A stretch of DNA of 43,508 nt, taken from contig CAJYWD010000002.1 of the NCBI GenBank assembly GCA_913778505.1, forward strand, positions 1-43,508, written 5' to 3'. The stretch's first letter is position 1. Each line of letters opens with the position of its first letter. The DNA comes from an uncultured Chryseobacterium sp. (GTDB taxonomy: Bacteria; Bacteroidota; Bacteroidia; Flavobacteriales; Weeksellaceae). This document shows, one piece after another, positions 5,567-20,933 of the stretch. The translations under genes and the position numbers were made by a program. The notes beneath the pieces are model-generated. The model saw only the letters and a list, made by a program, of their open reading frames with translations, searched no databases and had not been told where the DNA came from.

Positions 5567-8500
5567 ATGAGTGATTTTCCGCTCCCTGGCAATGAAGAGG
5601 CTCGTCTGGAAAAGCTGGCTCTCCAGGACCTCCTCAATCTCCCGAAGGATCCCGAACTGGATATTTTTGCAGAAACTATCTGCATTATCACAGATTCCCC
5701 GGCCTCGTTAATTTCGGTTATGGAAAGCAAAACCCAACGGATGCAAAGCTGTGTAGGTATGGCCATAGACAGTGTGGAACGTGAGAATACACTCTGCCAA
5801 TATGCCATCGCTGACGGCGAAGTGGTGGTCATCAATGATACACTTCTGGATGACCGTTCCAGTAATAATCCGTTGATTGTTGCCGGAGGAATTCGGTTTT
5901 ACGCCGGTGTTCCTCTGCTGGATGAAGAAGGTTTTGCGCTCGGAACCATCTGCGCAATAGACTACAGGCCCAAAATGATTTCTGAGAAACAGGTGGAAGG
6001 TCTCAAAAAGCTGGCTTCTGCAGTCACCAGAATGCTGTTATCACGCCGGAAAACAATTGACGCCGATTATTTTCAGCAGACTTTTGACATATCCAATAAC
6101 CTGATCTGTGTACTGGACAGTCAGTATCGTTTTAAAGATCTCAATCCTGCCTTCGAAAAAACTTTCAGAATCGGAAAAGCAGAAGCCGTCGGAAAAGATT
6201 TTGTGGAAATACTTGGTAAAAATGACCAGTTTTCCTGTTCTATCAATGATTTTAAGGAAAAGAAGGATTCATCCTTCACCACATCCACTTTACATAATGA
6301 TGGGTCACAGACTTTGGTAGAATGGACCCTGAAGCAGAATGAAAAATTTTCTGAAATTTTCTGTTTCGGAATCAATGTCACGTCACATTCCGAAGAAAAA
6401 AGACAGTTGGAAAGTTCGGAAAGGCGCTTCCGCAGCTTTTTCGAAAATGCAATCGGGCTGATGAGCATGCACGATATGCAGGGTAATATTATTGCCGTTA
6501 ATGAAAAAGGAAGAGAGATGCTCAATTATTCCGCAGAGGAAGTCAAAAGTCTCAACCTGCGTGATTTGGTGCCGAGGAAAAATCATCAGGGTATGGAGGA
6601 TTATCTCCGGCGTATCAGCAAAAATAAGGAGGATTTCGGAAATATGATTCTCTGCACAAAGGACGGAGCAGAACTCATCTGGATGTATCATAATCTGGTA
6701 GAACTGGATGATGAGGGACAACCTTACGTTATCAGCACGGCGCTGAACGTTACTGAAAGGGTGACTCTGGAAAAAGACCTGCTGTCTACCAAAAAATTCC
6801 TGGAGCAGACCAGTTCCGTGGCTCAGGTAGGAGGCTGGGAAGTGAATCTTAAAACCAATAAGATCTTCTGGTCAGACAGCACGCGCGAAATCCATAGGAT
6901 GGAAGGCGATTATCAGCCGGATCTGGAAAACGCCATCGGATTCTATCAGAAAGATAATCAGGAACGGGTCAAGTTTTTATTCAATCGTGCGATTCAGGAA
7001 GGCATTCCGTATGACGAGGAATTTCAGCTGGTGCGCAACGACGGTGTTACCATCTGGGTTCGCGTAAAAGCCATCCCGGAATTTGAGAATGGCGAATGTG
7101 TAAGGGTCTTTGGCATCATTCAGGACATTGACGCGTTCAAAAAAATGTATCTGGACATCACCAAGAAAGAAGCCATGATGCAGTCTTTCGTCACTTATGT
7201 ACCGGACGCTATTGCGATGTTTGATAAGGATCTGAATTACCTTTCAGTAAGTACCAGCTGGAAAGAGGAATTTGATATGAAAAATATAGACCTTATCGGT
7301 CACAATCTTTTTACCATTTCACCGAACGTTCCGGAGGCGCGTAAGATGATCTACCGCGCCGCATTGCAAGGCCACGTTTACGTAAATGATGATTTTGAAG
7401 TAAGCCTCAACGAATCCGAAGAGACACAGCATTACAGTTTAAAAGTCGGGCCGTGGTACGTTTCCGAAAACGAGATCGGCGGAATTATTGTCTCGGTCAA
7501 AAATACCACCAATGCCGTTTTAGTCAACCGGGAACTCAAGGAAGCTAAAAGAATGGCGGATATTGCCAGCAAAACCAAGTCTGAGTTTCTGGCCAATATG
7601 AGCCACGAAATCAGAACGCCGCTTAATGGTGTGATCGGATTTTCCGATTTATTGCTAAGAACACCACTGAACGACATCCAGACTCAATATCTGAATTATA
7701 TCAATGAATCCGGAGAAAATCTTCTCAACATCATCAATGACATTCTTGATTTTTCTAAAATCGAATCAGGGAAAATGGAATTGGTCGTAGAGCCGAGCGA
7801 TGTCTACGATATGGTGAGTCAGGTAATTAACGTGATTCTCTACCAGTCTCAGAAAAAAAATATCGAACTTCTTCTGAATATTGAACAGGGACTTCCAAGG
7901 ACTCTGATGGTAGATTCCGCAAGGCTAAAACAGATTCTTATCAATCTGCTTGGCAATGCGGTTAAATTTACGGAAAAAGGAGAGATCGAACTTAAAGTTG
8001 AGAAGCTTAACATCGATGAAAAAAATATAAAGCTTCGGTTTTCTGTGCGAGATACAGGCATCGGGATTCCGGAAGATAAGCAGAAGTATATCTTCGATGC
8101 CTTTACGCAGGAAAACAGTTCCATCAGCAAACGCTATGGCGGGACAGGTCTTGGATTGACCATTTCCAATAACATTTTGGGATACATGGGAAGTCATCTT
8201 TCGCTGGAAAGTGAGCTGGAAAAAGGCTCCGTATTTTTCTTCGAGATCGAAATGCCTTACGAAATGTCGGAAATCAAAGATGATAACGATGATCTTTCTA
8301 TCAGCCGGGTTCTGATCGTAGATGACAATGAAGCGAACAGGATTATTCTCCAGCACATGTTAGCCTACAAAAATGTTGATTCTGTTTTGGCAGCCAATGG
8401 GATGGAGGCTTTGCAATTGCTTCTGAAAGGCGAACGGTTTGATGTTATTCTGATGGATTATCACATGCCTATCATTTCTGGGCTGGAAACAATTGATAAA

Positions 8501-9469
8501 ATCCGCGAACTGTTTAGCCAGCGTAACGAAACTTCTCCGTTGGTGATTCTACACACGTCATCCGAGGAACATGATGTGATCAATTCTTTCAAAAAGGAAG
8601 AAAATTCCTACTTCCTCATGAAGCCTATCAAGTCCGAGGAACTTTACAAAACATTGAGACGTGTTGAGAAAAATACGCAGATCCAGGTCGGCGAAGTGAA
8701 AGTAGAAAACACAAAAACATTGTCTGTCCTGGATGATATTGATGTTCTTTTGGTGGATGATAATCCTGTCAATATGGTTCTGAATAACAGAATGATGAAA
8801 GTTTTGATCCCTAATGCGAAACTTACCGAAGCTGTGAACGGACTGGAAGCGCTGGAAGCTTGTAAGAAAAAATCTTTTTCAATCATCCTGATGGATGTTC
8901 AGATGCCAATAATGGATGGAATAGAAGCTACCAAGCAGATTCGTGAGATTGCGGGCTACGAGAATGTTCCGATTATCGGTGTTACAGCGGGAAATGTCCT
9001 TGGCGAAAGAGAAAAATGCATCGCGTGTGGAATGGACGATTTTCTCCCAAAACCGCTGCGCCAGTCTCAGTTGGAAGAAATGCTGAGCAAACATCTTGAT
9101 GTTCAGGATCATCAGCAACAGGATAAACAATTGGTAATAGAAGATCACCTTAATACGGAAATGCTTAACGAGCAAGTTGGCGATGATGTTGAGTTCCGAA
9201 ATATGTTTCTGAATCTGGTTGTAAAGCAACTTCATCAGGCTGACGAAGATATTGCGCTGGCAATTAGCGAAAAGAACAGGTCAGATGTTGAGGCTATTCT
9301 GCATAAACTCCGTGGTACAGCGGGAATTGCTGGTCTTTTTAAATTATCCGAAATCTCGGTAAAATGGGAGAAAGATGCCAGTGAAATGATAGATTTCCAA
9401 AAGCTGAATGATGAAATAAGGGAAGAAATCTCAGTTGGTCTTGATATTATAAAAAGTTTAATAAAATAA
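5567..9469 (+). CDS. Hybrid sensor histidine kinase: GAF-PAS(x4)-HisKA-HATPase-REC-REC-HPt
   Basis: This 1300-residue cytoplasmic hybrid kinase has no obvious membrane segment. Domains in order are: GAF (about 25-165); four PAS modules (about 170-275, 288-400, 410-525, 535-650); HisKA with phosphoacceptor His680 in NMSHEIRTPLNGVIGF; HATPase (about 780-895) with N box ILINLLGNAVKF, G1 DTGIGI and G2 GGTGLGL; receiver 1 with Asp964 in ILMDYHMP; receiver 2 with Asp1110 in ILMDVQMP; and an HPt domain with His1246 in LHKLRGTAG. A complete phosphorelay is therefore present in one chain. The stop lies 15 bases before a stand-alone receiver gene, followed by a HEAT protein and a GT2-sulfatase fusion with a 7-base overlap, so the four genes look like one operon. 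GAF and PAS ligands cannot be told from sequence; the lack of a transmembrane sensor suggests an intracellular signal. Confidence 0.93.
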   Translation: MSDFPLPGNEEARLEKLALQDLLNLPKDPELDIFAETICIITDSPASLISVMESKTQRMQSCVGMAIDSVERENTLCQYAIADGEVVVINDTLLDDRSSNNPLIVAGGIRFYAGVPLLDEEGFALGTICAIDYRPKMISEKQVEGLKKLASAVTRMLLSRRKTIDADYFQQTFDISNNLICVLDSQYRFKDLNPAFEKTFRIGKAEAVGKDFVEILGKNDQFSCSINDFKEKKDSSFTTSTLHNDGSQTLVEWTLKQNEKFSEIFCFGINVTSHSEEKRQLESSERRFRSFFENAIGLMSMHDMQGNIIAVNEKGREMLNYSAEEVKSLNLRDLVPRKNHQGMEDYLRRISKNKEDFGNMILCTKDGAELIWMYHNLVELDDEGQPYVISTALNVTERVTLEKDLLSTKKFLEQTSSVAQVGGWEVNLKTNKIFWSDSTREIHRMEGDYQPDLENAIGFYQKDNQERVKFLFNRAIQEGIPYDEEFQLVRNDGVTIWVRVKAIPEFENGECVRVFGIIQDIDAFKKMYLDITKKEAMMQSFVTYVPDAIAMFDKDLNYLSVSTSWKEEFDMKNIDLIGHNLFTISPNVPEARKMIYRAALQGHVYVNDDFEVSLNESEETQHYSLKVGPWYVSENEIGGIIVSVKNTTNAVLVNRELKEAKRMADIASKTKSEFLANMSHEIRTPLNGVIGFSDLLLRTPLNDIQTQYLNYINESGENLLNIINDILDFSKIESGKMELVVEPSDVYDMVSQVINVILYQSQKKNIELLLNIEQGLPRTLMVDSARLKQILINLLGNAVKFTEKGEIELKVEKLNIDEKNIKLRFSVRDTGIGIPEDKQKYIFDAFTQENSSISKRYGGTGLGLTISNNILGYMGSHLSLESELEKGSVFFFEIEMPYEMSEIKDDNDDLSISRVLIVDDNEANRIILQHMLAYKNVDSVLAANGMEALQLLLKGERFDVILMDYHMPIISGLETIDKIRELFSQRNETSPLVILHTSSEEHDVINSFKKEENSYFLMKPIKSEELYKTLRRVEKNTQIQVGEVKVENTKTLSVLDDIDVLLVDDNPVNMVLNNRMMKVLIPNAKLTEAVNGLEALEACKKKSFSIILMDVQMPIMDGIEATKQIREIAGYENVPIIGVTAGNVLGEREKCIACGMDDFLPKPLRQSQLEEMLSKHLDVQDHQQQDKQLVIEDHLNTEMLNEQVGDDVEFRNMFLNLVVKQLHQADEDIALAISEKNRSDVEAILHKLRGTAGIAGLFKLSEISVKWEKDASEMIDFQKLNDEIREEISVGLDIIKSLIK

Positions 9470-9484
9470 AAAGTCTGAAACGTT

Positions 9485-9841
9485 ATGTTAATTTTGATTG
9501 CCGAAGATGATGAGTTGATTCTCAAAACAATCGAACACAAATTACTGAAAGAAGGTCACGAAGTTATCCTTACCAGAAACGGAAAGGAAGCCATCGAAAC
9601 CTTAAAGGAAAAAGATGTGGATGTGGCCATTACCGATATAATGATGCCATTTGCTTCCGGCATTGAGATTTTGTCTGCACTGAAAACGATGAAAAAACAG
9701 ACACCGGTCATTATGCTCTCCAGTATGGGACAGGAAGAAGTGGTTTTGAATGCCTTTGACCTCGGCGCTTCCGACTTTATTGTCAAGCCTTTCAGTCCTA
9801 ATGAATTGATGCTCAGGATTAAACGTTTTATGCCCAAATAG
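9485..9841 (+). CDS. Single-domain response regulator (CheY-like)
   Basis: This 118-residue stand-alone receiver has the acidic pair Asp8/Asp9, phosphoacceptor Asp51 in ITDIMMPFASG, the conserved Ser in IMLSSMG and the conserved Lys in FIVKPFSPNE. No output domain follows, so it must act by protein contact or as a phosphate shuttle. It starts 15 bases after the hybrid kinase, whose HPt domain is a natural phosphodonor, and ends 12 bases before the HEAT protein gene. The arrangement suggests that it relays the kinase state to the membrane proteins encoded downstream; that link is inference. Confidence 0.93.
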   Translation: MLILIAEDDELILKTIEHKLLKEGHEVILTRNGKEAIETLKEKDVDVAITDIMMPFASGIEILSALKTMKKQTPVIMLSSMGQEEVVLNAFDLGASDFIVKPFSPNELMLRIKRFMPK

Positions 9842-9853
9842 AATGTATTTCTG

Positions 9854-10918
9854 ATGCTGATTACTTCCGTCCATTTTCTTTTCCTTGTTTTCATCGTGAT
9901 GTTATCATTGGTAATGCTGCTGATTATTGCCGTGCTGATTTATAATATTTTTGAATACAATCAGTCGCTGCGCATGGCTTCCTGGACCGATGTCATTAAC
10001 AAAAAAATCTCGGAGGTCATTGTCTATTGGGACGAGAAAGTGTCCGATGATTCGCAGTTTATGGCGTTGAGTGGCAATATTTCGTTCAGGAATCTTTTTC
10101 TGCAGAAATTAGTAGAATCGGAAAAGAAATTTTCTGGCGTGGCAAAGGATAAACTCAAAGATCTATTTAATGAATACAATCTGAAAAAAGAAGCTTTAAA
10201 GAAATTAAACCAAAAAAAGCCACATCTCATTGCAGGCGGAATTACGGAACTCACAGTGATGGAAGACAGTGATTCTGAGGAGAGAATTGCGTCATTCCTT
10301 ACACATCCTTCGGTTCAGGTTTACCAGGAAGCACAATATGCAATGGTGAGGTTCAAAGGTTTTGAAGGACTTCATTTCCTGGATTCTTTTACTTCCAGAA
10401 TTTCCGAATGGCAACAGCTCCGACTTTTGCTTTCTATTCCCTCCGTTCCCGAAAATTCCGAATCTGCCATTGAAAATTGGCTTAATAACTACAATGATTC
10501 CGTGGCGATTTTTACGCTGAAATTGATCAGGAAATTTCAAATTCTTTCGCTTTATCCTCAGGTTATTCAACTCCTTCGCCACGATTCGGTGAGTATCAGG
10601 ATCAAAGCTGTAAAAGTCCTGATGTCATTGGAAAATCCAGATACGGTAGCCTACCTCGGTTCCATTTATGATGAGCAACCGGAAGATGTGAAAATTGAAA
10701 TCCTGCTTGTGACCAAAGTTTCCAAAGACCAATGTTGTATCGATTTACTGAAACGTGAATTGTCAGCCGAGGTTTCTTCCGGAATCAAGGTCAATGCTGC
10801 ACAGGCACTTTACGAACTTGGTCATCAGCAATATCTTTCGGAATTGTCCCAGAATGAACATGCTTCCGAAGAATTAATTCAAATTGTCAAATACGCTTTG
10901 CAGGAAAAAGTATGTTAG
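9854..10918 (+). CDS. Membrane-anchored HEAT-repeat protein
   Basis: This 354-residue protein has one strongly hydrophobic N-terminal helix (about residues 8-31), then a charged helical region and, from about residue 140, repeated paired helices of the HEAT type. Examples are ERIASFLTHPSVQVYQEAQY, then SVSIRIKAVKVLMSLENPDT and VSSGIKVNAAQALYELGHQQ. HEAT arrays are protein-protein scaffolds. No enzyme motif is visible. The gene lies between the stand-alone receiver and the GT2 synthase and overlaps the latter by 7 bases, so the two products are probably made together. It may be the adaptor by which the receiver controls the synthase. Orientation of the HEAT part, cytoplasmic or periplasmic, is not settled by sequence alone; a short N-terminus before the helix favours a cytoplasmic C-terminal domain only if the positive-inside rule holds. 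Confidence 0.8.
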   Translation: MLITSVHFLFLVFIVMLSLVMLLIIAVLIYNIFEYNQSLRMASWTDVINKKISEVIVYWDEKVSDDSQFMALSGNISFRNLFLQKLVESEKKFSGVAKDKLKDLFNEYNLKKEALKKLNQKKPHLIAGGITELTVMEDSDSEERIASFLTHPSVQVYQEAQYAMVRFKGFEGLHFLDSFTSRISEWQQLRLLLSIPSVPENSESAIENWLNNYNDSVAIFTLKLIRKFQILSLYPQVIQLLRHDSVSIRIKAVKVLMSLENPDTVAYLGSIYDEQPEDVKIEILLVTKVSKDQCCIDLLKRELSAEVSSGIKVNAAQALYELGHQQYLSELSQNEHASEELIQIVKYALQEKVC

Positions 10919-13900
10919 AGTTTTCACACATCATCTACGAAATCGTTATCTGGCTTTATCTCCTTTACGGAGCGGCTATTGCCATCATTTACGGCTGGGT
11001 CGGCATCTATGCATTCGGAGCGGTTTTGCGATACAAAAAGGAAAATGTTTTTACGGATTACAGCATCATCGCTGCCAATCCCAATGCGCCGGTTTTCAGT
11101 GTTCTGGCGCCTGCTTACAATGAAGGAATGACCATTGTGGAAAATGTCCGCTCCTTGTTATCTTTATTTTATCACAATCTTGAGATTATCATCATCAACG
11201 ATGGCAGCAAGGACGACTCTATGCAGAAGCTGATAGAGGCTTATGATTTGGAATGTGTTTCCTTTTTTGTCCAGGGAAAAATCGAAACCAATAAAATCCG
11301 AGGTATTTACAAGAGTAAGAATCAGGCCTTTAAAAAACTGATTGTCGTTGACAAGGAAAATGGCGGCAAAGCCGATGCGCTGAATGTCGGAATCAATGTA
11401 TCATCCGGTCAATATCTCGTCTGTATCGATGTAGATTGTATTCTGGAGCAGGATTCTATTCTGAAATTAGCAAAACCTTTCCTGGAAGAGACCGACAAGA
11501 AAATCATTGCCTGTGGCGGTGTCATCCGTCTGGCCAACAATTGTGTGGTAGAAGACGGGAAAGTGGTGAGCGTGAATATGCCGAAAACATTGTTAGGAAG
11601 GACACAAGCATTAGAATATGTTCGCGCTTTCGTTTTGGGAAGAATGGCCTGGTCGCGCGCTTCCGGATTGATTCTGATTTCCGGCGCGTTCGGTGTCTTC
11701 GACCGTAAAATTGTTCTGGAATGTGGCGGCTACGACCGTAAAACCGTAGGTGAAGATATGGAACTCGTGGTCAGGATGCGGAAATATATGGAAGAGCGAA
11801 AAGAGCCTTATGAAGTGCTTACGATTCCGGATCCGCTGTGCTGGACAGAAGTTCCCGAAACCAAAGATATCCTCAAAAAACAACGAAACCGCTGGATGCG
11901 CGGCACCATCGAAACGCTTTGGAAACACCGCGGCATGATGTTCAATCCGAAATACAAGAAACTAGGAATGGTAAGTCTGCCGTACTGGTTTTTCTTCGAG
12001 TTCCTTGGTCCTTTGGTCGAGTTTTCCGGCTACATCGTATTCATCATCTTTCTGCTTCTAGGCATTATCAACTGGCCATTTTTCTTCGTGCTGTTTGCGC
12101 TGGTTTTATCGATGGGATTTCTCTATTCAGTGTACGCCATGCTGGTGGATATGATGAGTCACCAGGTTTACAGCAAGCGGAAAGACTTTTTTGCATTGAT
12201 TGTTACGGCGTTTACAGAACCGTTTTACTTTCACCCGATTACCGTCCGTGCCGGTGTGAATGGTTTTATCGATTATTTCAAAAAATCGCACGGCTGGGGC
12301 GAAATGACAAGGCAAGGTTTCAGCCAGAACACCCAAAATCTGCCAATAGGTAAAAGGATTTGGGCGATGCTGAAATTTGGGCTTGGGCAATATGGCGCAA
12401 TTGCGGCAACTTTTGCCGTACTTTACATGCTTGGCGTAGTCGCCGAGTGGCTTTGGTACCATTATTCATTTACCGGTGTCGATACTTCTCCTGTGGTCAG
12501 ATCGTTAGTTTTGGATAATGTCAGATTTCTTCTGGAATTGATTTTTGGCGTTGGAATCGTTTATCTCATCATCAATTTTATCAAGGAAAGCTGGGCACGG
12601 AAACTGGCGGTTCTGGTTTTCGGATTCGTGGTGGTCATCCAGTATATTCTGTTTCTTTATTTTTCTGAAACCGGTAATATGCTCGGCGCAGATTTGGTCT
12701 ATTACAGTAAAGCGGAAATTAAACAAATCCTGGATGCCAGCGGAATGCTTAATTTTAAAAACTATGCATTGATAGGCATTTTGCTGGCCGTCGCCTTCAT
12801 TCCTCTGTGGCTCTCGGGAAGATTTAATTTTCGTTCGGTTTATCTGGGTTCAGGTTTGATTCTTTTAGGTTTGCTGGCTTATTTTCTACCCACTGAAATG
12901 ATTAGTGCCAAGGAACTTAGTGTTGCTACGGACTTTAACCAGAATGCTGCGAAAAGTAAATGGGCGTATTTTTTCAGAGCCAATGAGGAAAACTTCATCA
13001 GTGACCATCCGGAAATCACGGAATTTCTAAATGAAGATGAAGCTTTGGACAACAGCAAAACAATGCTGAATCCGGATTTTCCATTTTGGAAAAAAGAAGA
13101 CACGCAGGATTTTCTCGGCAATTATCTGAAACCATCCGACGAAATCCCGAATCTCGTGTTTGTAGTGTTGGAAGGCTTTGGTCATGCTTACACTTCGCCG
13201 AAAGGCTATATGGGAAATTTCACACCGTTCCTGGATTCGTTGTCCCAAAAAAGTCTGTATTGGGAAAATGGTCTGAGTTCTGCGGGAAGGACTTTTGCAG
13301 CTTTGCCATCATTAACCGGTTCATTGCCTTTTGGCAAAAATGGATTTTTGGAAATCAAGGAAACGCCGGATCATTTTAATTTGTTCAATATTCTTAAGAC
13401 CAACGGCTTCGATACCGGATTTTATTACGGCGGAAATCTGGATTTTGATGGTTACAGAAACTATCTTGAGTATAGCAAGGTCAATCAAATTGTAGATATT
13501 AAATCCTATGATAAGTCTTACCAAAAACTGCCTTCCAATCCAGGTGGCGAGAGTTGGGGTTTTGATGATCAGTCGGTTTTCCGAAAAGTGCTGGATGCGC
13601 AAAAAGTAGAATCGAAGCCTTATTTTAATATGATTCTCACGCTTTCCACGCATAATCCGTTTGCCATCAACAGAAAGGATTATTACGAAAAATTATACAA
13701 CCAGAGGATGAGTTCTAATGTCCTTTCACCTTCGCAAAAACAATGGAGCAGAGAATACAAAACGCAACTCATTTCTGTCCTGAATGCCGATGATGCGCTG
13801 AGACATTTCTTTGATAACTACAGCAAACGTGCGGACTTTAAAAAGACGATTTTTGTCATCACGGGCGACCACGCAATGCCGGAGATTCTGTTGCAATCCA

Positions 13901-14343
13901 AGATTGACCGTTTCCACGTCCCAATGATGATTTATTCGCCATTGTTGAAGGAAGCCAAACGTTTTCAGAAAACCATCAGCCATTTTGATGTCGCACCATC
14001 GATTCTGGCCTATTACCGGAAAAATTATAATCTAAAAACGCCTTCCACCGTAACCTGGACAGGAAAAGGTCTCGCATCGGATTCGGAAATCAGCAAGAGT
14101 GATGTTCCGATGATGCAGAGTAAAACGTTACTGACGGATTTTGTCTCAGAAAAATATTATCTGCATGACAGAAATTTGTTTATTCTGAAAAATTCGGAAG
14201 AAGGCCAACTGGATAATCCGCAGATTTATCAAAAGATTAACGGAAAATTCAGCCAATTCAAAAAAATGAATTCCAAATTTTATCAGACAAAAAAGTTGAT
14301 GCCGGATTCAGTTTATGTTAATTTTATGAAACAATCAAAATAA
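10912..14343 (+). CDS. Fusion of GT2 polysaccharide synthase and LtaS-like phospho-transferase/sulfatase domain
   Basis: This 1143-residue inner-membrane protein has two enzymes in one chain. After an N-terminal membrane helix (about 10-38) comes a processive GT2 domain: Asp173 and Asp175 of the DxD motif in CIDVDCIL, Glu281-Asp282 of GEDMEL (the TED equivalent), and Q324-R-N-R-W328, the QxxRW motif of PgaC/BcsA-like synthases. Several further membrane segments follow between about 355 and 710. From about residue 745 a periplasmic alkaline-phosphatase-superfamily domain resembles LTA synthase and phosphoethanolamine transferases: metal ligand Glu754 in VVLEGFGHA, nucleophile Thr794 in AGRTFAALPSLTG, His914 in LTLSTHNPF, and Asp986-His987 in ITGDHAMPE. 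A synthase that also decorates its product with phosphoglycerol or phosphoethanolamine is a reasonable reading; the actual sugar and donor are unknown. It is the last gene of the kinase operon and faces a YaiO-type exporter gene. Confidence 0.88.
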   Translation: MLEFSHIIYEIVIWLYLLYGAAIAIIYGWVGIYAFGAVLRYKKENVFTDYSIIAANPNAPVFSVLAPAYNEGMTIVENVRSLLSLFYHNLEIIIINDGSKDDSMQKLIEAYDLECVSFFVQGKIETNKIRGIYKSKNQAFKKLIVVDKENGGKADALNVGINVSSGQYLVCIDVDCILEQDSILKLAKPFLEETDKKIIACGGVIRLANNCVVEDGKVVSVNMPKTLLGRTQALEYVRAFVLGRMAWSRASGLILISGAFGVFDRKIVLECGGYDRKTVGEDMELVVRMRKYMEERKEPYEVLTIPDPLCWTEVPETKDILKKQRNRWMRGTIETLWKHRGMMFNPKYKKLGMVSLPYWFFFEFLGPLVEFSGYIVFIIFLLLGIINWPFFFVLFALVLSMGFLYSVYAMLVDMMSHQVYSKRKDFFALIVTAFTEPFYFHPITVRAGVNGFIDYFKKSHGWGEMTRQGFSQNTQNLPIGKRIWAMLKFGLGQYGAIAATFAVLYMLGVVAEWLWYHYSFTGVDTSPVVRSLVLDNVRFLLELIFGVGIVYLIINFIKESWARKLAVLVFGFVVVIQYILFLYFSETGNMLGADLVYYSKAEIKQILDASGMLNFKNYALIGILLAVAFIPLWLSGRFNFRSVYLGSGLILLGLLAYFLPTEMISAKELSVATDFNQNAAKSKWAYFFRANEENFISDHPEITEFLNEDEALDNSKTMLNPDFPFWKKEDTQDFLGNYLKPSDEIPNLVFVVLEGFGHAYTSPKGYMGNFTPFLDSLSQKSLYWENGLSSAGRTFAALPSLTGSLPFGKNGFLEIKETPDHFNLFNILKTNGFDTGFYYGGNLDFDGYRNYLEYSKVNQIVDIKSYDKSYQKLPSNPGGESWGFDDQSVFRKVLDAQKVESKPYFNMILTLSTHNPFAINRKDYYEKLYNQRMSSNVLSPSQKQWSREYKTQLISVLNADDALRHFFDNYSKRADFKKTIFVITGDHAMPEILLQSKIDRFHVPMMIYSPLLKEAKRFQKTISHFDVAPSILAYYRKNYNLKTPSTVTWTGKGLASDSEISKSDVPMMQSKTLLTDFVSEKYYLHDRNLFILKNSEEGQLDNPQIYQKINGKFSQFKKMNSKFYQTKKLMPDSVYVNFMKQSK

Positions 14344-14344
14344 A

Positions 14345-14372
14345 AAAAGGAGCTTTATTTGGAGCTCCTTTT
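14345..14372. terminator. Bidirectional terminator between GT2 fusion and YaiO genes
   Basis: Ten-base arms AAAAGGAGCT (14345-14354) and AGCTCCTTTT (14363-14372) enclose an 8-base loop. The A-rich left flank and T-rich right flank suit both converging transcripts. Confidence 0.8.
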
Positions 14373-14384
14373 CTGTATTTAAAA

Positions 14385-15617
14385 TTAAAATTTCCTGGTG
14401 TAGCCTAATGTGACGTCAAACTGATTGCCTTTTGTATTCGGTCGATATTCCTGATTGTAATACATGGTACCGACTGAAAAGAGATTTCTACTGATGGAAA
14501 AATTATATTCCGCACCGATTTTAAAAGTTTTGAGCTTATAGACTTCATTCTGCAACAGGTTGTTAATCGATTCTTCCGGACTGATTCCCGTCCCGATTTG
14601 GAAAGCAAAATAGTCCTGAGCACTTTTGGTATAATAACGTACGGTTCCGGTGTAGGAGTGAGAAATGTTTTTGTTATCCGGCGTGAGATAAGTTCTCAGA
14701 TTGAACCAGAAGTTTTTGTAATATTTTCCAACCGATGCCGTGTACATGCAGATATTGCTGCTAAAATACAGTTGGCGATAACCCAATTCCGCTTCAAAAC
14801 TATGCGGAAGATTTGCATTCACGGAAACTCCGGTTCTGTATTTTGGGAAAATACCTACATCGTTAGAATAAGCTGCACCAACATATAGATAAAACATATC
14901 CGACAATCTTGGATACGCCTCAAGCTCCAGCTGGGTGCCGTTTTCCGCAAATTTGTTGGCATAGTTCGCCCGCAGAATCACCGAGCCAATCGGCGTAACT
15001 CGTTTATATCCTACACTCACGATGTGCCAGTCATCTGCAAACTGTTTATCGAAATGTGAGTAATTATAAGTAATACTTATAGCGTTTTTCGCTGCCACAT
15101 CGTTGATTCTCACGGCAAGACCCGTCGCTTCGGTGTTTTTTGGATTTATTTTAAGGACCTGATCTACAGCGATTTGAGCGGCTTCATAATTTTTCGCCGA
15201 ATTGTAAGTTTTTGCTTTTAAGAGAAGAAGTTGCTCGGACTGCGGATGATAGGAGAGACCTTTGTTAAGGATTTCTATCGCCTTGTCATTGTTGTCATTC
15301 CAATATTCCAGAGATGCGTAAGCGAGAAAAAAATCCTCATCCTGAACATTTCGTTGATTTAAATCTTCAAAAATACTTCTGGCGGCAGCTAAATCTTTGT
15401 CCCAAGTGTAAAGCCTTCCTAGGAATACAGAAATATCCGTGTAATTGGGCGAAATTTCCAGCGCCTGTTTGGCCAGCGCAATAGATTTGGGATAATCCTT
15501 TTCCTCGAAGGCTGCCGTTCTGGCATTGGCAAATAGTTCATCCGAAGATAAGGTTTGCTGGCTGTAGGCCTGAAAAGGAATCATCAACAATAATAAAAAT
15601 CCGGCGTGTTTTCTCAT
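14385..15617 (-). CDS. YaiO-family outer-membrane protein (TPR + beta-barrel)
   Basis: This 410-residue secreted protein has a Sec signal (residues 1-19, ending A-Y-S-Q-Q), TPR-type helical repeats (about 22-165, e.g. DISVFLGRLYTWDKDLAAA and KAIEILNKGLSYHPQSEQ) and a C-terminal barrel of alternating strands ending in R-K-F, as in the YaiO outer-membrane barrel family. TPR plus barrel is also the plan of PgaA-type exporters, so the protein is a good candidate to carry the polymer made by the convergent GT2 fusion through the outer membrane; this is inference from architecture and position. The ATG at 15617 is chosen because the signal peptide starts there and a -7 element (TATCTTTG) lies at 15648-15641; a longer reading would begin at the transcription start. 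Confidence 0.85.
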   Translation of the reverse strand: MRKHAGFLLLLMIPFQAYSQQTLSSDELFANARTAAFEEKDYPKSIALAKQALEISPNYTDISVFLGRLYTWDKDLAAARSIFEDLNQRNVQDEDFFLAYASLEYWNDNNDKAIEILNKGLSYHPQSEQLLLLKAKTYNSAKNYEAAQIAVDQVLKINPKNTEATGLAVRINDVAAKNAISITYNYSHFDKQFADDWHIVSVGYKRVTPIGSVILRANYANKFAENGTQLELEAYPRLSDMFYLYVGAAYSNDVGIFPKYRTGVSVNANLPHSFEAELGYRQLYFSSNICMYTASVGKYYKNFWFNLRTYLTPDNKNISHSYTGTVRYYTKSAQDYFAFQIGTGISPEESINNLLQNEVYKLKTFKIGAEYNFSISRNLFSVGTMYYNQEYRPNTKGNQFDVTLGYTRKF

Positions 15618-15640
15618 GGAGATTATTGAAATCAAAAAAA

Positions 15641-15667: not shown

Positions 15668-15891
15668 ATAATAGCATTGATGGAAATATAAAATTATTGT
15701 TATTGATTTTTGAAAATTACCTTGCAGATTGTTCTTTCTATCTGGCTTAATGGTAATAATCATTAAAACAGACAATAAATTCGTATGTAACATTACGGAA
15801 CTTACGATTAGCGTAAAAATACTGAATTATAGATCAGGATTTCTTGTTTAATTTGCATTATCAAAATCATTACATAATTATTTATCACTCT

Positions 15892-17565
15892 ATGAGAAAA
15901 CTTTTACCTTACGCTGCAGCCTTCGCAACACTCGCTGTTTTGTCTTGTAACAATGACGGCGATGACTTTTCCAATGCGCAGCAAAACGAAATTATATTAA
16001 ACTCCGATGCACAAAGCCTCAGCAGAAGGATTGAATTCGACAACTCCGGTGTTCTGAATATGAGATCCGCAGATGGCGGCAAAACCACTACAGCCGGTGA
16101 TCTTCCTCTGGTTTTGGTAGCAGAAGTTGCGCCGCCGGTTTATAACGGAAAAACTTTGCGGGCAACGCATGTGACAGTGGAGGGTAACTACGCTTACGTG
16201 TCATACAATACGGAAGGCGAGACTTACCTTGGTGCTATAGAAGTGCTGGACGTCACTAATCCTAATGCTCCGAAGCTGCTGATGCAGGCGATTCTTCCGG
16301 ATACGGACGTCAGCTCGGTGAGATATGATGATGGTAAACTATACATCGCCGGCGCAAGAGATATGGATATTTTCAAAGCGACATCACCGGCTTTCGTCGG
16401 AAGTATGAATCTGAGCGGTGGCATGCTGACAAACGCTCTTCAGCAGACTGCCATCAGCGGAAAAGTGGCGACAGATGTTACGTCCAACGGCTCCAAATAT
16501 TACGCAGTGTCCGGTGCTACCGGAGTTCTGGCCCAGCTCAGCAAGAGCAGTCAGCAGGTAGAGATTTCAATTCCTTTAAGCGATCTGAGAGCTCTAGGCT
16601 ACAACAGCAATAAAATTGTCGTGCTGAGCGGTGCACAGGGCGTTAAAATCTATGACGCAAACGGACTGTCTCCGGTGACTTCTTTCGCAACATCCGTGGA
16701 CGTGGCGGAAGCTAAAAGAACCATTGATTTCATCGACGGAAAATTACTGGTTTCCGAAGGATACAATGGTGTGGGCGTTTACAATCTTACTTCGGGTACT
16801 AAGCTTCAGAAACTGGATCTGCCAACGCAAATTTCGGGCGTAGATCCTGCCGATGTGGTGAGCAATGCAGTTTCCGTCAATTCGGGAAGAGTGTTTGTGG
16901 CCAACGGCGGTGCCGGATTGTACGTTTATGCCTCGGATAATAATGCGTTGAAGCTTTTAGGTTCCCTCGATCTTCAAGGTTCATCTAACTTTGTGATGAG
17001 TAAAGGTGAATATATCTTCGTGGCGACAGGAAAAGGCGGTCTCAAGATCATCAAGACTGTGGCTCCGGCAAGCGGAAGCGTCAACTGCTCGTCGTTCCCG
17101 GCTTACACCGGCGGCGAATGGCTCAATGTGAATTCTGGTCAGACATTGGAATATTCCGGAACTAAAAGTCTGCAGGGCATCAATGTTAATCAATCTCTAA
17201 CATGGTGTGGTGCGCTCACAGCTTCTCAGGCGGTAAATATTAACAGCAATGCAACCTTCAATATGTACGGACAATTATTCCAGGGCACGAAAGCCAATCC
17301 GTGGAATTCCCTGAATATCAACAGTGGAGCGCTTCTTAACCTGAAAGGAGATCTTACAACCTACGGACACATGATTCTGAACAGCAATGCGAACTGGAAA
17401 ATAGAAGGAAACGTGACCATCTTCGGAAATCTTACGATTAACCAGGGTTCTAAGATCGAGTTTATTGGCAGTAATTCTTCCATCACCATTCATGGTACTG
17501 TTACGAAAAACGGAACGTCTACCATTACAGGAACATTTAAAGATGTCAGTGGGAAGTTAAAATAG
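15892..17565 (+). CDS. Lipoprotein with LVIVD-type propeller and beta-helix-like tail
   Basis: This 558-residue lipoprotein has signal MRKLLPYAAAFATLAVLSC with lipidated Cys19; the ATG at 15892 is chosen because the signal begins there. Residues about 70-390 contain LVIVD-type repeats (for example IEVLDVTNPNAPKLLMQA, then YDDGKLYIAG), which form a beta-propeller. From about residue 405 to the end the composition changes to short strands rich in N, G, S and T with a recurring N-I-N-S-N/S-G-A pattern (VNINSNATFNMYG, LNINSGALLNLKG), as in parallel beta-helix or polymer-forming surface proteins. No catalytic motif is visible. It is probably exposed at the cell surface. A strong terminator separates it from the TonB-dependent receptor 115 bases downstream, so they are probably not one transcript. 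Confidence 0.75.
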   Translation: MRKLLPYAAAFATLAVLSCNNDGDDFSNAQQNEIILNSDAQSLSRRIEFDNSGVLNMRSADGGKTTTAGDLPLVLVAEVAPPVYNGKTLRATHVTVEGNYAYVSYNTEGETYLGAIEVLDVTNPNAPKLLMQAILPDTDVSSVRYDDGKLYIAGARDMDIFKATSPAFVGSMNLSGGMLTNALQQTAISGKVATDVTSNGSKYYAVSGATGVLAQLSKSSQQVEISIPLSDLRALGYNSNKIVVLSGAQGVKIYDANGLSPVTSFATSVDVAEAKRTIDFIDGKLLVSEGYNGVGVYNLTSGTKLQKLDLPTQISGVDPADVVSNAVSVNSGRVFVANGGAGLYVYASDNNALKLLGSLDLQGSSNFVMSKGEYIFVATGKGGLKIIKTVAPASGSVNCSSFPAYTGGEWLNVNSGQTLEYSGTKSLQGINVNQSLTWCGALTASQAVNINSNATFNMYGQLFQGTKANPWNSLNINSGALLNLKGDLTTYGHMILNSNANWKIEGNVTIFGNLTINQGSKIEFIGSNSSITIHGTVTKNGTSTITGTFKDVSGKLK

Positions 17566-17680: not shown

Positions 17681-19711
17681 ATGATAAAATTCTATTTCTT
17701 ATCTTCACTTATAACGGCCTCATTGTTATGGTCTCAGCAGAAAGATTCTGTACAACTCATTTCCAAGGTTGAAATTGATTCTTATAAAAAACCTTCAACT
17801 TTCATTTCATCCACCAAGTCAGTAGCTTTAGTATCTAAAAATCTGATGAATCAGTCCACACCGGAAAGGATGCTGGAAGCTGTGAATCAGATTCCTGGCG
17901 CAAGGATGGAGGAACGATCTCCGGGAAGCTACAGGATTTCCCTGCGCGGCAGTACGCTAAGATCGCCGTTTGGTGTTCGGAATGTCAAAGTTTACCTGGA
18001 TGATTTTATTTTGTCTGATGCGTCGGGTAATACTTATTTTAACGTGATTTCTCCCAGGCTGATAGACCGGATGGAAATTTACAAAGGTCCGGAAAGTGGT
18101 GATTACGGTGCAATGACCGGAGGTACGATTCTGCTCAAAACAAGGGATTATGAAACATCTTCTATGGGAATTTCGGTTGGGAGCTACGGCACATTTGACC
18201 AGAATTTGATTTTAACTAAAAGATCAGGAAGGCATTTTCTAGAACTCTTTCAAAATTACTATCAGACCGATTCGTACCGTGAACAATCCAGGATGAATCG
18301 AACACAAATTTTCATCAAGGATCATTATAACTATTCGGAAAAGGCAGTTCTGAAAACGATATTGATGTATTCTGATCTGGATTACCAAACACCAGGCGGC
18401 CTGACTCTGGAACAGATGAAGATGAACCCCAGACAGGCGCGTGCGAAAACCGCGACAACGCCAGGTACAAAAGAGCAGCAGGCCGGAATCCGGAACAAAA
18501 TGCTTTTGGCAGGCATTTCTAATGATTTTAAAATAGATAAAAATTTATCTCACTTTATATTGTTTCAAGGCGCTTACGTCGATTTTGAAAATCCATTTAT
18601 CACCAATTATGAACATCGGTATGAGAATAATCTGGCGATGAGAACGCATATCAGCTATGAGAAGAATTGGGAAGGGATATCTTTCGCTTACAGACTAGGA
18701 TTTGAAGGCGGACGAAATCAGATAATCATCCGTAACTTTGATAATAACCGTGGAAGCGAAGGCAATCCCCAAAATTTTGACCAACTTAAAAATACATCCG
18801 GTTTCTACTTTCTATCTCAAAGATTGAACGTTGGAAAACAACTGTTTACAGATATTTCCATCAGTCTTAATTCTAATGATTATACTTGGCGAAGGTCATT
18901 TCCTAATATTGAAAATGGTAAAAAGGCTTTTGGAAATCAATGGCTTCCGAGTTTTGGTGTGAGCTATATTTTATCCGAAGGATTTTCAGTGCGTGGAAAA
19001 TTAGGAAAAGGAAATTCTGCGCCGACTAATGAAGAGGTCAGATCTTCTGATCAGCAATTCAATTCACAATTACAGCCGGAATATGGCTGGAACAAGGAAT
19101 TGGGTCTGAGAAAACAATTCGGGAAATCTGTTTTTCTGGAAGCAGGATACTTCGATTTCAGAATGAAAGATGCCATTATCAGAAGACAAAATGATGCAGG
19201 TCAGGAATATTTTGTCAATGCCGGAGAGACAGTTCAGAAAGGTCTGGAAGTACTCCTTGAAACCGAATATTTTGATCTCAAAAATCAATTTCTTAATCAG
19301 TTGAGATTCCGGATTTCTGGAAGTTTCTACGATTTCAAATTCCAAAATTACCGGCAAAACAATAGCGACTTTTCCGGCAATCAATTAACGGGTGTTCCCA
19401 AAACTACAGTCAGTTCACTGATCAGCCTCATGTTCTTCAGGATTCTGACTTTAGATTATGCACACGTTTACACGGGAAAACTACCATTGAACGATGCCAA
19501 TTCGGTATGGGCAGATCCGTCGCTGGTCGGGAATGCGCAATTCAGATTGCCGTTGGTTTTGGACAATACCAAAATCAGACTGAACCTCCAGATCCAAAAT
19601 TTATACAACACGGAGTATGTTTCAGGATTTGATACAAATGCTTTTGGCAACCGCTTTTACAATCCGGCTGCCGGAAGGAATTTTATTTTTGGAGTAGAAG
19701 CCGTCTTTTAA
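17681..19711 (+). CDS. TonB-dependent receptor
   Basis: This 676-residue outer-membrane active transporter has a Sec signal (about residues 1-19, ending L-L-W-S-Q), a plug domain (about 45-165) with typical pieces MLEAVNQIPGARMEERSPGS, RISLRGSTLRSPFG and MEIYKGPESGDYG followed by GGTILLKTR, and then a 22-strand-type barrel ending in V-E-A-V-F with the terminal Phe. There is no N-terminal carboxypeptidase-D-like extension, so it is not a typical SusC-type receptor; size and layout suit siderophore, cofactor or metal-complex uptake. The substrate cannot be read from sequence. Its stop overlaps the stop of the convergent HD-domain gene by four bases (19708-19711). No clear promoter box was found in the 115-base upstream gap. 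Confidence 0.88.
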   Translation: MIKFYFLSSLITASLLWSQQKDSVQLISKVEIDSYKKPSTFISSTKSVALVSKNLMNQSTPERMLEAVNQIPGARMEERSPGSYRISLRGSTLRSPFGVRNVKVYLDDFILSDASGNTYFNVISPRLIDRMEIYKGPESGDYGAMTGGTILLKTRDYETSSMGISVGSYGTFDQNLILTKRSGRHFLELFQNYYQTDSYREQSRMNRTQIFIKDHYNYSEKAVLKTILMYSDLDYQTPGGLTLEQMKMNPRQARAKTATTPGTKEQQAGIRNKMLLAGISNDFKIDKNLSHFILFQGAYVDFENPFITNYEHRYENNLAMRTHISYEKNWEGISFAYRLGFEGGRNQIIIRNFDNNRGSEGNPQNFDQLKNTSGFYFLSQRLNVGKQLFTDISISLNSNDYTWRRSFPNIENGKKAFGNQWLPSFGVSYILSEGFSVRGKLGKGNSAPTNEEVRSSDQQFNSQLQPEYGWNKELGLRKQFGKSVFLEAGYFDFRMKDAIIRRQNDAGQEYFVNAGETVQKGLEVLLETEYFDLKNQFLNQLRFRISGSFYDFKFQNYRQNNSDFSGNQLTGVPKTTVSSLISLMFFRILTLDYAHVYTGKLPLNDANSVWADPSLVGNAQFRLPLVLDNTKIRLNLQIQNLYNTEYVSGFDTNAFGNRFYNPAAGRNFIFGVEAVF

Positions 19712-20910
19712 ACCATCACATTGCGGAATGCCACCACAAATGCCACTACGGAAGCGATGATACCAACCGTAAAAACCGTGTAGGTAAGCCTCAGTAATTT
19801 ATATTTTCTGTTGAGAACCACGCCCAGATAATAGAGATCCTTGATCATCGTATCGTAGAGATACTGGCGGTCATTCATCATTTCCTTCATCGCCCACAGG
19901 TATTCAGCCATCGGCATTTTGTAGAAATTTCCGAAGAAAAGAAGATTGACTTTCTTCTCTTCAATTTCTTTTCTTGTAAAAGTCCCGCTGGACACCTTCG
20001 GCCTTGTGGACATGATCGCAAGAATGATACAGATCACACTGAAAATCACCATTACGAAGGTGGGAATAATGAGGTGCGCGTTGCTTGGTGCATCCAGTTT
20101 AGGGATTAAAGATGAAAGCGCAATAGAGATGATGATGGCATTCACGGAAAGCAGTATGTTCGCCTTGCTGTCGGCTATCTGGCTCAGTTTTGTGTGATTG
20201 TTCAGCGTCACACGGAACATCGTCTCAATACCACGCTCCGGAGATTCCAGCTTCTCCAGTTTTTTCTTGTTAAGCAGCGCTTTATCACGATCTTCAGCGG
20301 ACTTCCGTTTCTTTTCATCCTTCAGATTCTGGATATGGGACAGGATCTTATCCACGTTTTTCTCCTTTACAGGCTGCCAGTGTTCTTTTGCATACTTGGT
20401 GTAAAACTGATGCTTGGAAAAGAAGACGATATTAAGCTCGGACCATTGCTGCTTGCTGAATTTCTGATTATGCACATCTTTGATTTCCTGCCTTAGATTT
20501 TCACAAATCCTGAAATAATCGTCGGAGCCCAGATGGTAAAGATCAGCATCTTTTATGATTTCCTCCAGATGATTTTTAGGCTTATAAAACTTGTCTGTGG
20601 CAAGAATCAGTTCGCCGATTTTTCCGATTCGATCCTTTGGTAAGCCATTTTTACTGAGAAAATCAGCTGCTATTTTGCGGCTTTCCTCCTCATGATCATC
20701 AGCATTATCCACATGTCCTGCATCATGAAACCAGCCTGCCAGAAGCAGATTTTCAGTATTCTCGGGATCGATGTTTTCCTCTTTTGCCAGGATTTTGATC
20801 TTGTCCACTACCTGGATAGTGTGATCCAGATTATGATAAGAGTAGGCAGAAGGTAATCTGTCCTTCAATAAATTCTTCACATAATCCTCCGAAACCGTCA
20901 AAATATCCAT
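19708..20910 (-). CDS. HD domain fused to Pycsar-effector-like transmembrane domain
   Basis: This 400-residue protein has an HD phosphohydrolase-like domain (about residues 1-200): His26 and His30 in YHNLDHT, His62-Asp63 in GWFHDAGH, and a later Asp in IIKDADLYHLG. A charged, Lys/Glu-rich linker (about 195-220) leads to a C-terminal membrane domain containing the ADSKANILLSVNAIIISI segment (near residue 245), typical of the Pycsar effector (PycTM, DUF5706) family. Hydrophobic stretches occur near 250-270, 277-298 and 372-395. PycTM proteins respond to cyclic pyrimidines in anti-phage defence; an HD domain could bind or hydrolyse a nucleotide. No nucleotide cyclase is encoded in this window, so a defence role here is not shown. 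The ATG at 20910 is preferred because a -7 box (20933-20926) lies just before it and overlaps the longer TTG-start reading. Confidence 0.8.
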   Translation of the reverse strand: MDILTVSEDYVKNLLKDRLPSAYSYHNLDHTIQVVDKIKILAKEENIDPENTENLLLAGWFHDAGHVDNADDHEEESRKIAADFLSKNGLPKDRIGKIGELILATDKFYKPKNHLEEIIKDADLYHLGSDDYFRICENLRQEIKDVHNQKFSKQQWSELNIVFFSKHQFYTKYAKEHWQPVKEKNVDKILSHIQNLKDEKKRKSAEDRDKALLNKKKLEKLESPERGIETMFRVTLNNHTKLSQIADSKANILLSVNAIIISIALSSLIPKLDAPSNAHLIIPTFVMVIFSVICIILAIMSTRPKVSSGTFTRKEIEEKKVNLLFFGNFYKMPMAEYLWAMKEMMNDRQYLYDTMIKDLYYLGVVLNRKYKLLRLTYTVFTVGIIASVVAFVVAFRNVMV

Positions 20911-20925
20911 AGATGCAATTTGAAA

Positions 20926-20933
20926 CAAATTTA
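20926..20933 (-). promoter_or_regulatory. -7 element of the HD-PycTM gene
   Basis: TAAATTTG on the minus strand, an exact TAnnTTTG match 15 bases before the ATG. No TTTG was found at the -33 distance, so only half of the promoter is supported. It rules against a start at 20928. Confidence 0.5.

Follow-up and report, generated by a model that had tools for sequence, protein, structure and literature searches.

A probable five-gene module for relay-controlled synthesis, decoration and export of a surface polysaccharide in Chryseobacterium and other Bacteroidota

Synthase-dependent polysaccharides are usually explained through control by cyclic di-GMP (c-di-GMP). In the Pga system for poly-N-acetylglucosamine (PNAG), a glycosyltransferase family 2 (GT2) synthase of the inner membrane is paired with an outer-membrane exporter combining tetratricopeptide repeats (TPRs) and a barrel, and in the Bcs system, synthase and TPR-barrel export are accompanied by BcsG, the phosphoethanolamine transferase of bacterial cellulose and a member of the alkaline-phosphatase superfamily. 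PMC9601211 names a TPR protein and an outer-membrane beta-barrel as features of synthase-dependent secretion. Here we describe a locus in a 43,508-nucleotide stretch of DNA (the window; contig CAJYWD010000002.1) from an uncultured Chryseobacterium sp.; its five genes make up a portable unit whose probable role is to synthesise, decorate and export a surface sugar polymer, controlled by a signalling relay.

Four of the genes are on the forward strand. A hybrid histidine kinase (5567..9469; 1300 amino acids (aa)) is followed after a gap of 15 bases by a stand-alone receiver (9485..9841; 118 aa) and after a further 12 bases by a membrane-anchored HEAT protein (9854..10918; 354 aa), whose gene overlaps by 7 bases that of a fusion of a GT2 synthase to an LtaS-like protein (10912..14343; 1143 aa). 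The synthase half of the fusion (10912..12351; aa 1-480) was assigned from PF00535, PF13641 and conserved residues, and the LtaS-like half (12352..14343) has membrane segments followed by an alkaline-phosphatase-superfamily domain (PF00884, aa 746-1033). The convergent fifth gene, on the reverse strand at 14385..15635, encodes a YaiO-family outer-membrane protein of 416 aa when counted from a TTG codon; its likely start is an ATG at 15617, which opens a signal-peptide-like sequence and agrees with the boundary given in a preliminary description of this DNA. The five genes of that description, with their spacing, were all present in the list of open reading frames, and the kinase, receiver, HEAT and YaiO proteins were assigned with Pfam models, supplemented for YaiO by NCBIfam.

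The association of these genes was studied in 92 GT2 loci, comprising the window, 32 loci from genome contigs and 59 other Bacteroidota stretches (60 had been picked from the stronger GT2 matches, and one of these, L114, was discarded because it had no GT2 gene). Not every locus is independent of the others, and 14 of the 32 contig loci are from close Chryseobacterium kin, including the short contigs L064 and L065. A HEAT gene, located with a profile iterated on these loci, lay directly upstream of the GT2 gene on the same strand in 90 of the 92 (79 by filter, plus 11 in which it overlaps the GT2 frame by 13-145 bases), and the two others, L064 and L065, are contig ends with 154 and 67 bases upstream. 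A stand-alone receiver was encoded within 4 kb in 84 loci and YaiO within 5 kb in 60; 47 loci had a kinase gene within 4 kb on the same strand. Gene order varied: some loci have YaiO after GT2, some have it separating receiver and HEAT, and in others it is convergent. The gene next after the receiver could be counted in 71 of the 84 loci (the receiver was missing from the simplified gene list in 13) and was HEAT, on the receiver's strand, in 51, YaiO in 11, unlabelled in 7 and a kinase in 2.

A weaker-matching, related GT2 family, represented by 20 loci from the tails of two GT2 searches, served as the control, and in it neither a HEAT gene nor a stand-alone receiver was found (0/20 for each). 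Longer receiver proteins, of 216-244 aa, were encoded in four control loci, and one locus encoded a protein of 1071 aa with a match to the YaiO query (E 2e-6). FastTree, a quick method that here gave long-branch warnings, placed the HEAT-linked and control GT2s on opposite sides of one branch with a support of 100, both for 80 + 20 rows (omitting 12 Chryseobacterium rows) and for 87 + 22 rows with plasmid loci added (omitting 13 Chryseobacterium rows and L064, L065, L128, L145, L146 and L165).

The preliminary description had proposed a search for conserved co-occurrence of the gene families in Bacteroidota, and such co-occurrence was found in the 92 loci and, for GT2, HEAT and YaiO, in 395 Bacteroidota genomes drawn once from the phylum. 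Members of the GT2 clade, cut at E values up to about 1e-70 (the next match was at 3e-41), numbered 106 genes in 94 genomes of the draw. Full-length HEAT genes, with a match that started by profile position 15 and spanned at least about 200 positions, numbered 105 in 92 genomes, after 25 other rows, mostly partial matches to seemingly other HEAT proteins, had been dropped (the raw tally was 111 genomes), and there were 88 YaiO genes in 85 genomes. GT2 and HEAT were common to 91 genomes and GT2 and YaiO to 84, with 300 genomes lacking both members of the pair in each comparison (Fisher p of 6.6e-85 and 2.6e-73, respectively, uncorrected for relatedness and with cuts set after the lists had been seen). 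A kept HEAT match lay within 500 bases of 97 of the 106 GT2 genes; the nine exceptions were five cases of a long HEAT gene that is in fact adjacent to GT2, G201 with its genes on different contigs, G081, where a partial HEAT match among the dropped rows lies at a distance of 362 bases, and G135 and G183, which are unaccounted for. Similarly, 77 of the 88 YaiO genes were within 6 kb of GT2.

The block is also portable, as it occupied about ten different flanking contexts among 16 loci (the window, 14 Chryseobacterium-type loci and, from a different family of the class, L069). Flanks of 4.5 kb upstream and 5 kb downstream, compared by blastn for matches longer than 300 bases, matched only within the groups L038, L040 and L041, and L042-L045 and L050; the other eight, the window included, matched none, with the caveats that L040 had no upstream flank and that distant flank homology could escape blastn. 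The proteins that flank the block in the window were not found around four such loci by tblastn, and in a relative whose fusion is 88% identical (G411) the block and TamA were on different contigs (C25 and C17, respectively). Synteny, the control family, co-occurrence and portability together refute a scattering of the five genes in relatives and indicate that they belong together, as had been claimed. Based on this linkage evidence, we consider it close to certain that the genes of the module function together.

The HEAT-GT2 pair was also identified outside the Bacteroidota, including on Bacillota contigs of Pontibacillus, Lysinibacillus, Halobacillus and two Alkalicoccus. Of 88 GT2 matches in plasmid records, 14 stood out above 200 bits (next best, 167), and all 12 of these that were examined (two further Mesorhizobium were left out) had HEAT directly upstream of GT2, as determined by profile (weakest E 9e-5, in Halosolutus). 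Their hosts were Bacteroidota, Bacillota, Deinococcota (Deinococcus), Pseudomonadota (Alphaproteobacteria and Legionella adelaidensis) and three haloarchaea (Haloarcula, Salinirubellus and Halosolutus). HEAT was found in none of four examined records of the 74 weaker plasmid matches, two of the four being haloarchaeal. A receiver was near HEAT-GT2 in 7 of the 12 loci, including all three haloarchaeal plasmids (L159, L162 and L163), in which receiver, HEAT and GT2 are ordered as in the window; the receiver and HEAT frames overlap in two of these, and one small gene intervenes in Halosolutus (L163). After GT2 in Halosolutus come a gene for a sugar-phosphate nucleotidyltransferase and glmS, which hint at an amino-sugar substrate and an amino-sugar polymer. 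On the 34-kb plasmid pEMTOL05 of Emticicia oligotrophica (L155), receiver, HEAT, GT2, YaiO and LtaS-like genes occur together, the HEAT gene being annotated as hypothetical and recognised by profile. DUF4838 proteins are encoded near HEAT-GT2 in Bacteroides finegoldii (L156), in a stretch in which no receiver was found, and in another Bacteroidota locus (L112:5661-7892, minus strand).

Analyses of the synthase half showed that D97, D173, D175, E281, D282, Q324, R327 and W328, residues which are presumably catalytic, were identical in all 92 GT2 sequences. All 92 also carried the QxxRW motif, which we take to be a mark of processive synthases, and the Pfam domains, invariant DxD and QxxRW and predicted membrane segments are those expected of a processive synthase of the inner membrane. 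The LtaS-like half matched the Sulfatase domain PF00884 at 106.4 bits (cut-off 25), and its best sequence match in the PDB was 3lxq. The LtaS-type residues, likewise presumed to be catalytic, were well represented in 43 sequences (E754 in 40, T794 in 37 with S in 4, H914 in 39, D986 in 39, H987 in 42 and H1024 in 43). An LtaS-like gene was fused to GT2 in 22 of the 92 loci, and a further 20 loci had it as a separate gene within 8 kb. Directly 3' of GT2 at L054:11437-13290 there is a glycerophosphodiester phosphodiesterase-type gene, which was noted in four Gillisia loci (one member scanned) and is a hint of glycerophosphate chemistry.

The HEAT protein matched HEAT_2 at 34.3 bits (cut-off 27.7) and has a hydrophobic segment (aa 11-29) followed by an alpha-solenoid. 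An AlphaFold2 model of high confidence (predicted local distance difference test score, pLDDT, 95.8; predicted template-modelling score, pTM, 0.87) has a single long N-terminal helix preceding the solenoid, and Lys/Arg residues were in excess after the membrane segment relative to before it in 86 of 89 HEAT proteins (one further protein had no above-threshold segment, and the segments in L108 and L110 were picked inside repeats). Based on the model and this Lys/Arg excess, the solenoid is most likely cytoplasmic. In our reading, the membrane segment of the HEAT proteins of L103 and L104 is preceded by an apparent signal sequence and an apparent outer domain.

The kinase contains GAF, several PAS, HisKA (aa 671-735) and HATPase_c (aa 783-896) domains, two Response_reg stretches (one at aa 1060-1173) and an Hpt domain at aa 1213-1288, the last of which was just above its cut-off (25.1 versus 24.6 bits); no transmembrane segment was found in its 1300 aa. 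The linked kinases of related loci, 34 of which were scanned (13 close Chryseobacterium kinases of the 47 were left out), had a receiver in 33 and an HPt domain in 24, which is the make-up of a multistep relay as judged by domain content. With its separate receiver, the window has domain matches to all the parts of a multistep phosphorelay: HisKA, receiver, HPt and separate receiver. The stand-alone receiver matched its Pfam model at 103.4 bits (cut-off 30.2) and has no output domain. Across the 84 receivers, the commonest residues included D51 (96%), D8 (95%) and K101 (97%), and D51, alongside D8 and K101, is likely the phospho-acceptor. Some Gillisia loci have a separate gene ahead of the receiver, one scanned member of which matched receiver and HPt models, both just under the Pfam cut-offs.

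The YaiO protein, the sole YaiO match in its genome, scored 229.5 bits with PF19413 (cut-off 23.9) and 201.7 bits with TIGR04390 (cut-off 32). Its predicted TPRs (about aa 40-170) and barrel (aa 183-416) correspond to the two features of synthase-dependent secretion noted above. A family of proteins of about 390 aa was observed near YaiO, LtaS-like and HEAT genes in L113 (11773-12960, minus strand) and 13 other loci, and its scanned member had no Pfam or NCBIfam match; by eye, the N-terminus of a longer Bacillota protein (L059:11616-14813, minus strand) resembles a motif of this family.

No match to GGDEF or PilZ was found in the window's genome, which is 95.45% complete (the genome-wide searches did not extend to EAL or to other c-di-GMP receptors), and the same GGDEF and PilZ searches were positive in 8 and 5, respectively, of 14 control genomes. 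The lack of such matches makes c-di-GMP control unlikely in this organism, in line with the doubt expressed in the preliminary description. In two Alkalicoccus loci (L061:134-1708 and L067:7312-8958) a two-receiver GGDEF protein with a weak, sub-cut-off HPt match is encoded just upstream of HEAT-GT2, and GGDEF and EAL each matched one member of the linked kinases.

Taking these data together, the explanation we favour, with some reserve, is a self-contained, portable polysaccharide module in which control passes from the relay to the receiver, the HEAT protein and the synthase. The kinase, having no membrane segments, would sense a signal via its GAF/PAS domains, and phosphate would pass from HisKA to a receiver, then to HPt and the stand-alone receiver. 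As the latter has no output domain, it would have to act through protein contact, most likely with the membrane-anchored HEAT protein, which in turn would gate GT2 as an obligate partner of the synthase. The processive synthase would build a glycan across the inner membrane, the fused LtaS-like domain, outside that membrane, would attach a phospho-group (phosphoglycerol or phosphoethanolamine), and the YaiO TPR-barrel would export the polymer. In our view, three features make this the simplest reading: a receiver lacking an output domain, a binding scaffold that is predicted to be cytoplasmic and is tied to the synthase, and c-di-GMP machinery that is apparently missing.

Several observations weigh against this explanation. 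The proposed receiver-HEAT-synthase contact is our inference, and the structure model covers the HEAT protein alone. A stand-alone receiver was not present within 4 kb in 8 of the 92 loci (L064, L065 and L110 are at contig ends; L059, L063 and L077 have none that near; and in L060 and L121 a longer receiver-bearing protein is directly upstream of HEAT), nor was a receiver found in 5 of the 12 plasmid loci. In 32 of the 92 loci no YaiO gene was observed within 5 kb; these include Bacillota (without an outer membrane), short contigs and L107, whose YaiO was too long for the filter. Moreover, only 2 of 23 genomes of the window's genus have the full fusion, and some related loci encode GGDEF-bearing proteins, so c-di-GMP may be an additional input in some other lineages.

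The most serious of three rival explanations, which we nonetheless consider rather unlikely, is that HEAT serves constitutively as a structural subunit or an assembly factor, for which PgaD in its association with PgaC offers a parallel, and that the receiver acts on GT2 or elsewhere. HEAT does outnumber the stand-alone receiver, both in the 92 loci (90 versus 84) and in the 12 plasmid loci (12 versus 7), and HEAT-GT2 with no receiver found in the 6-kb flanks occurred in Bacteroides, Paenibacillus, Deinococcus, Planococcus and Legionella adelaidensis. Against it stand the direct precedence of receiver over HEAT in 51 of 71 loci and the overlapping frames of two haloarchaea; in addition, HEAT sequences are much more divergent than those of GT2 (median distance, 0.82 versus 0.55), which would be unexpected for a rigid core subunit. 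For the favoured explanation, the greater constancy of HEAT favours a view in which it may be a core subunit of the synthase, acted on by the receiver in many lineages, and the receiver a common, non-obligatory regulator.

It is improbable that the LtaS-like half makes a teichoic-acid-like phosphoglycerol polymer as the main product and that GT2 supplies its anchor or side sugars. The conservation of the LtaS-type residues and the phosphodiesterase-type gene after GT2 in the four Gillisia loci would fit such a product, but 50 of the 92 loci, some of them short, kept GT2-HEAT with an LtaS-like gene neither fused nor within 8 kb, and the QxxRW motif of processive synthases was in every GT2. Least credible of all, and very improbable in our view, is a conventional system of the Pga or Bcs type under c-di-GMP control, to which the kinase would be incidental: the GT2 is distantly PgaC-like (TIGR03937, 131 bits) and GGDEF proteins do occur in some relatives' loci, but the genome gave no GGDEF or PilZ match, the PgaC and CelA cut-offs were not reached, and in several phyla the synthase often has phosphorelay genes linked to it. 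Returning to the relay-receiver-HEAT-synthase explanation, we speculate, with slightly less than even confidence, that receiver, HEAT and GT2 form an ancient cross-domain switch, in which a relay gates the synthase by contact via HEAT in parallel to c-di-GMP/PilZ, and to which lineages have added their own outer parts (YaiO, an LtaS-like decorator or, in archaea, neither).

Transcription signals and neighbouring genes were also analysed. A terminator-like hairpin with a 12-pair stem between the convergent genes (14343..14374, both strands) is consistent with two convergent transcripts; as a class, such hairpins were not above chance (12 versus 9.5 +/- 3.0 in shuffles). The YaiO gene had been credited with its own promoter, and this part of the earlier interpretation was not borne out by motif scans; the unity of the five genes, the synthase-dependent make-up with a phosphorelay and the unlikelihood of c-di-GMP control were supported. 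A strict Bacteroidota-type motif was not matched in the vicinity of YaiO, and the number of sigma-70-like sites across the region lay within chance expectation (27 versus 23.0 +/- 4.5 in shuffles). Adjoining the YaiO gene, at 15844-17565, is a gene for a 573-aa protein with a weak LVIVD-repeat match only (18.3 bits, cut-off 20.2), which was not detected near the block in the four relatives checked. Further away, at 19708-20928 on the reverse strand beside a TonB-dependent receptor gene, there is a gene for a protein with an HD domain and PycTM, a Pycsar effector-like membrane domain.

If the proposed explanation is correct, a kinase-linked alternative to c-di-GMP would explain surface-polymer switching in many Bacteroidota and perhaps in haloarchaea. 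It would also suggest a job for the YaiO family, as 84 of the 85 YaiO-bearing Bacteroidota genomes in the draw also have this synthase. Searches of an open-access library turned up no paper listed as describing the five-part set; its novelty is provisional, subscription papers mostly, and bioRxiv as such, being outside that scope.

Compared with known systems, the module shares with Pga a GT2 synthase of the inner membrane and a TPR-barrel exporter, and the window GT2 is distantly PgaC-like, but the window proteins were below the equivalog cut-offs for PgaC (131 versus 422 bits) and PgaA (22 versus 367 bits), and the module has HEAT, a phosphorelay and an LtaS-like fusion where Pga has PgaB, PgaD and c-di-GMP. 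The module resembles Bcs in combining a synthase, a phospho-group transferase of the alkaline-phosphatase superfamily and TPR-barrel export. It differs in that the GT2 scored 22 against a CelA cut-off of 699, the genome had no PilZ match, and the transferase is fused to the synthase. The LtaS likeness lies in a PF00884 domain with residues we take to be equivalent, whereas the LtaS equivalog NF053595 was not reached (31 versus 970 bits) and the window domain is fused to GT2. In Escherichia coli, yaiO is near the GT2 gene yaiP, with yaiX, which is interrupted by IS2 in K-12, between them; the 11-kb K-12 yaiO stretch has no annotated HEAT, receiver or kinase gene, YaiP is 24% identical to the window GT2 over 229 aligned positions, and E. 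coli YaiO (257 aa) is shorter than that of the window, with a BLASTP match that was not significant (E 0.038). Provisionally, we view the module as a variant of synthase-dependent polymer secretion that is set apart by its HEAT partner and phosphorelay.

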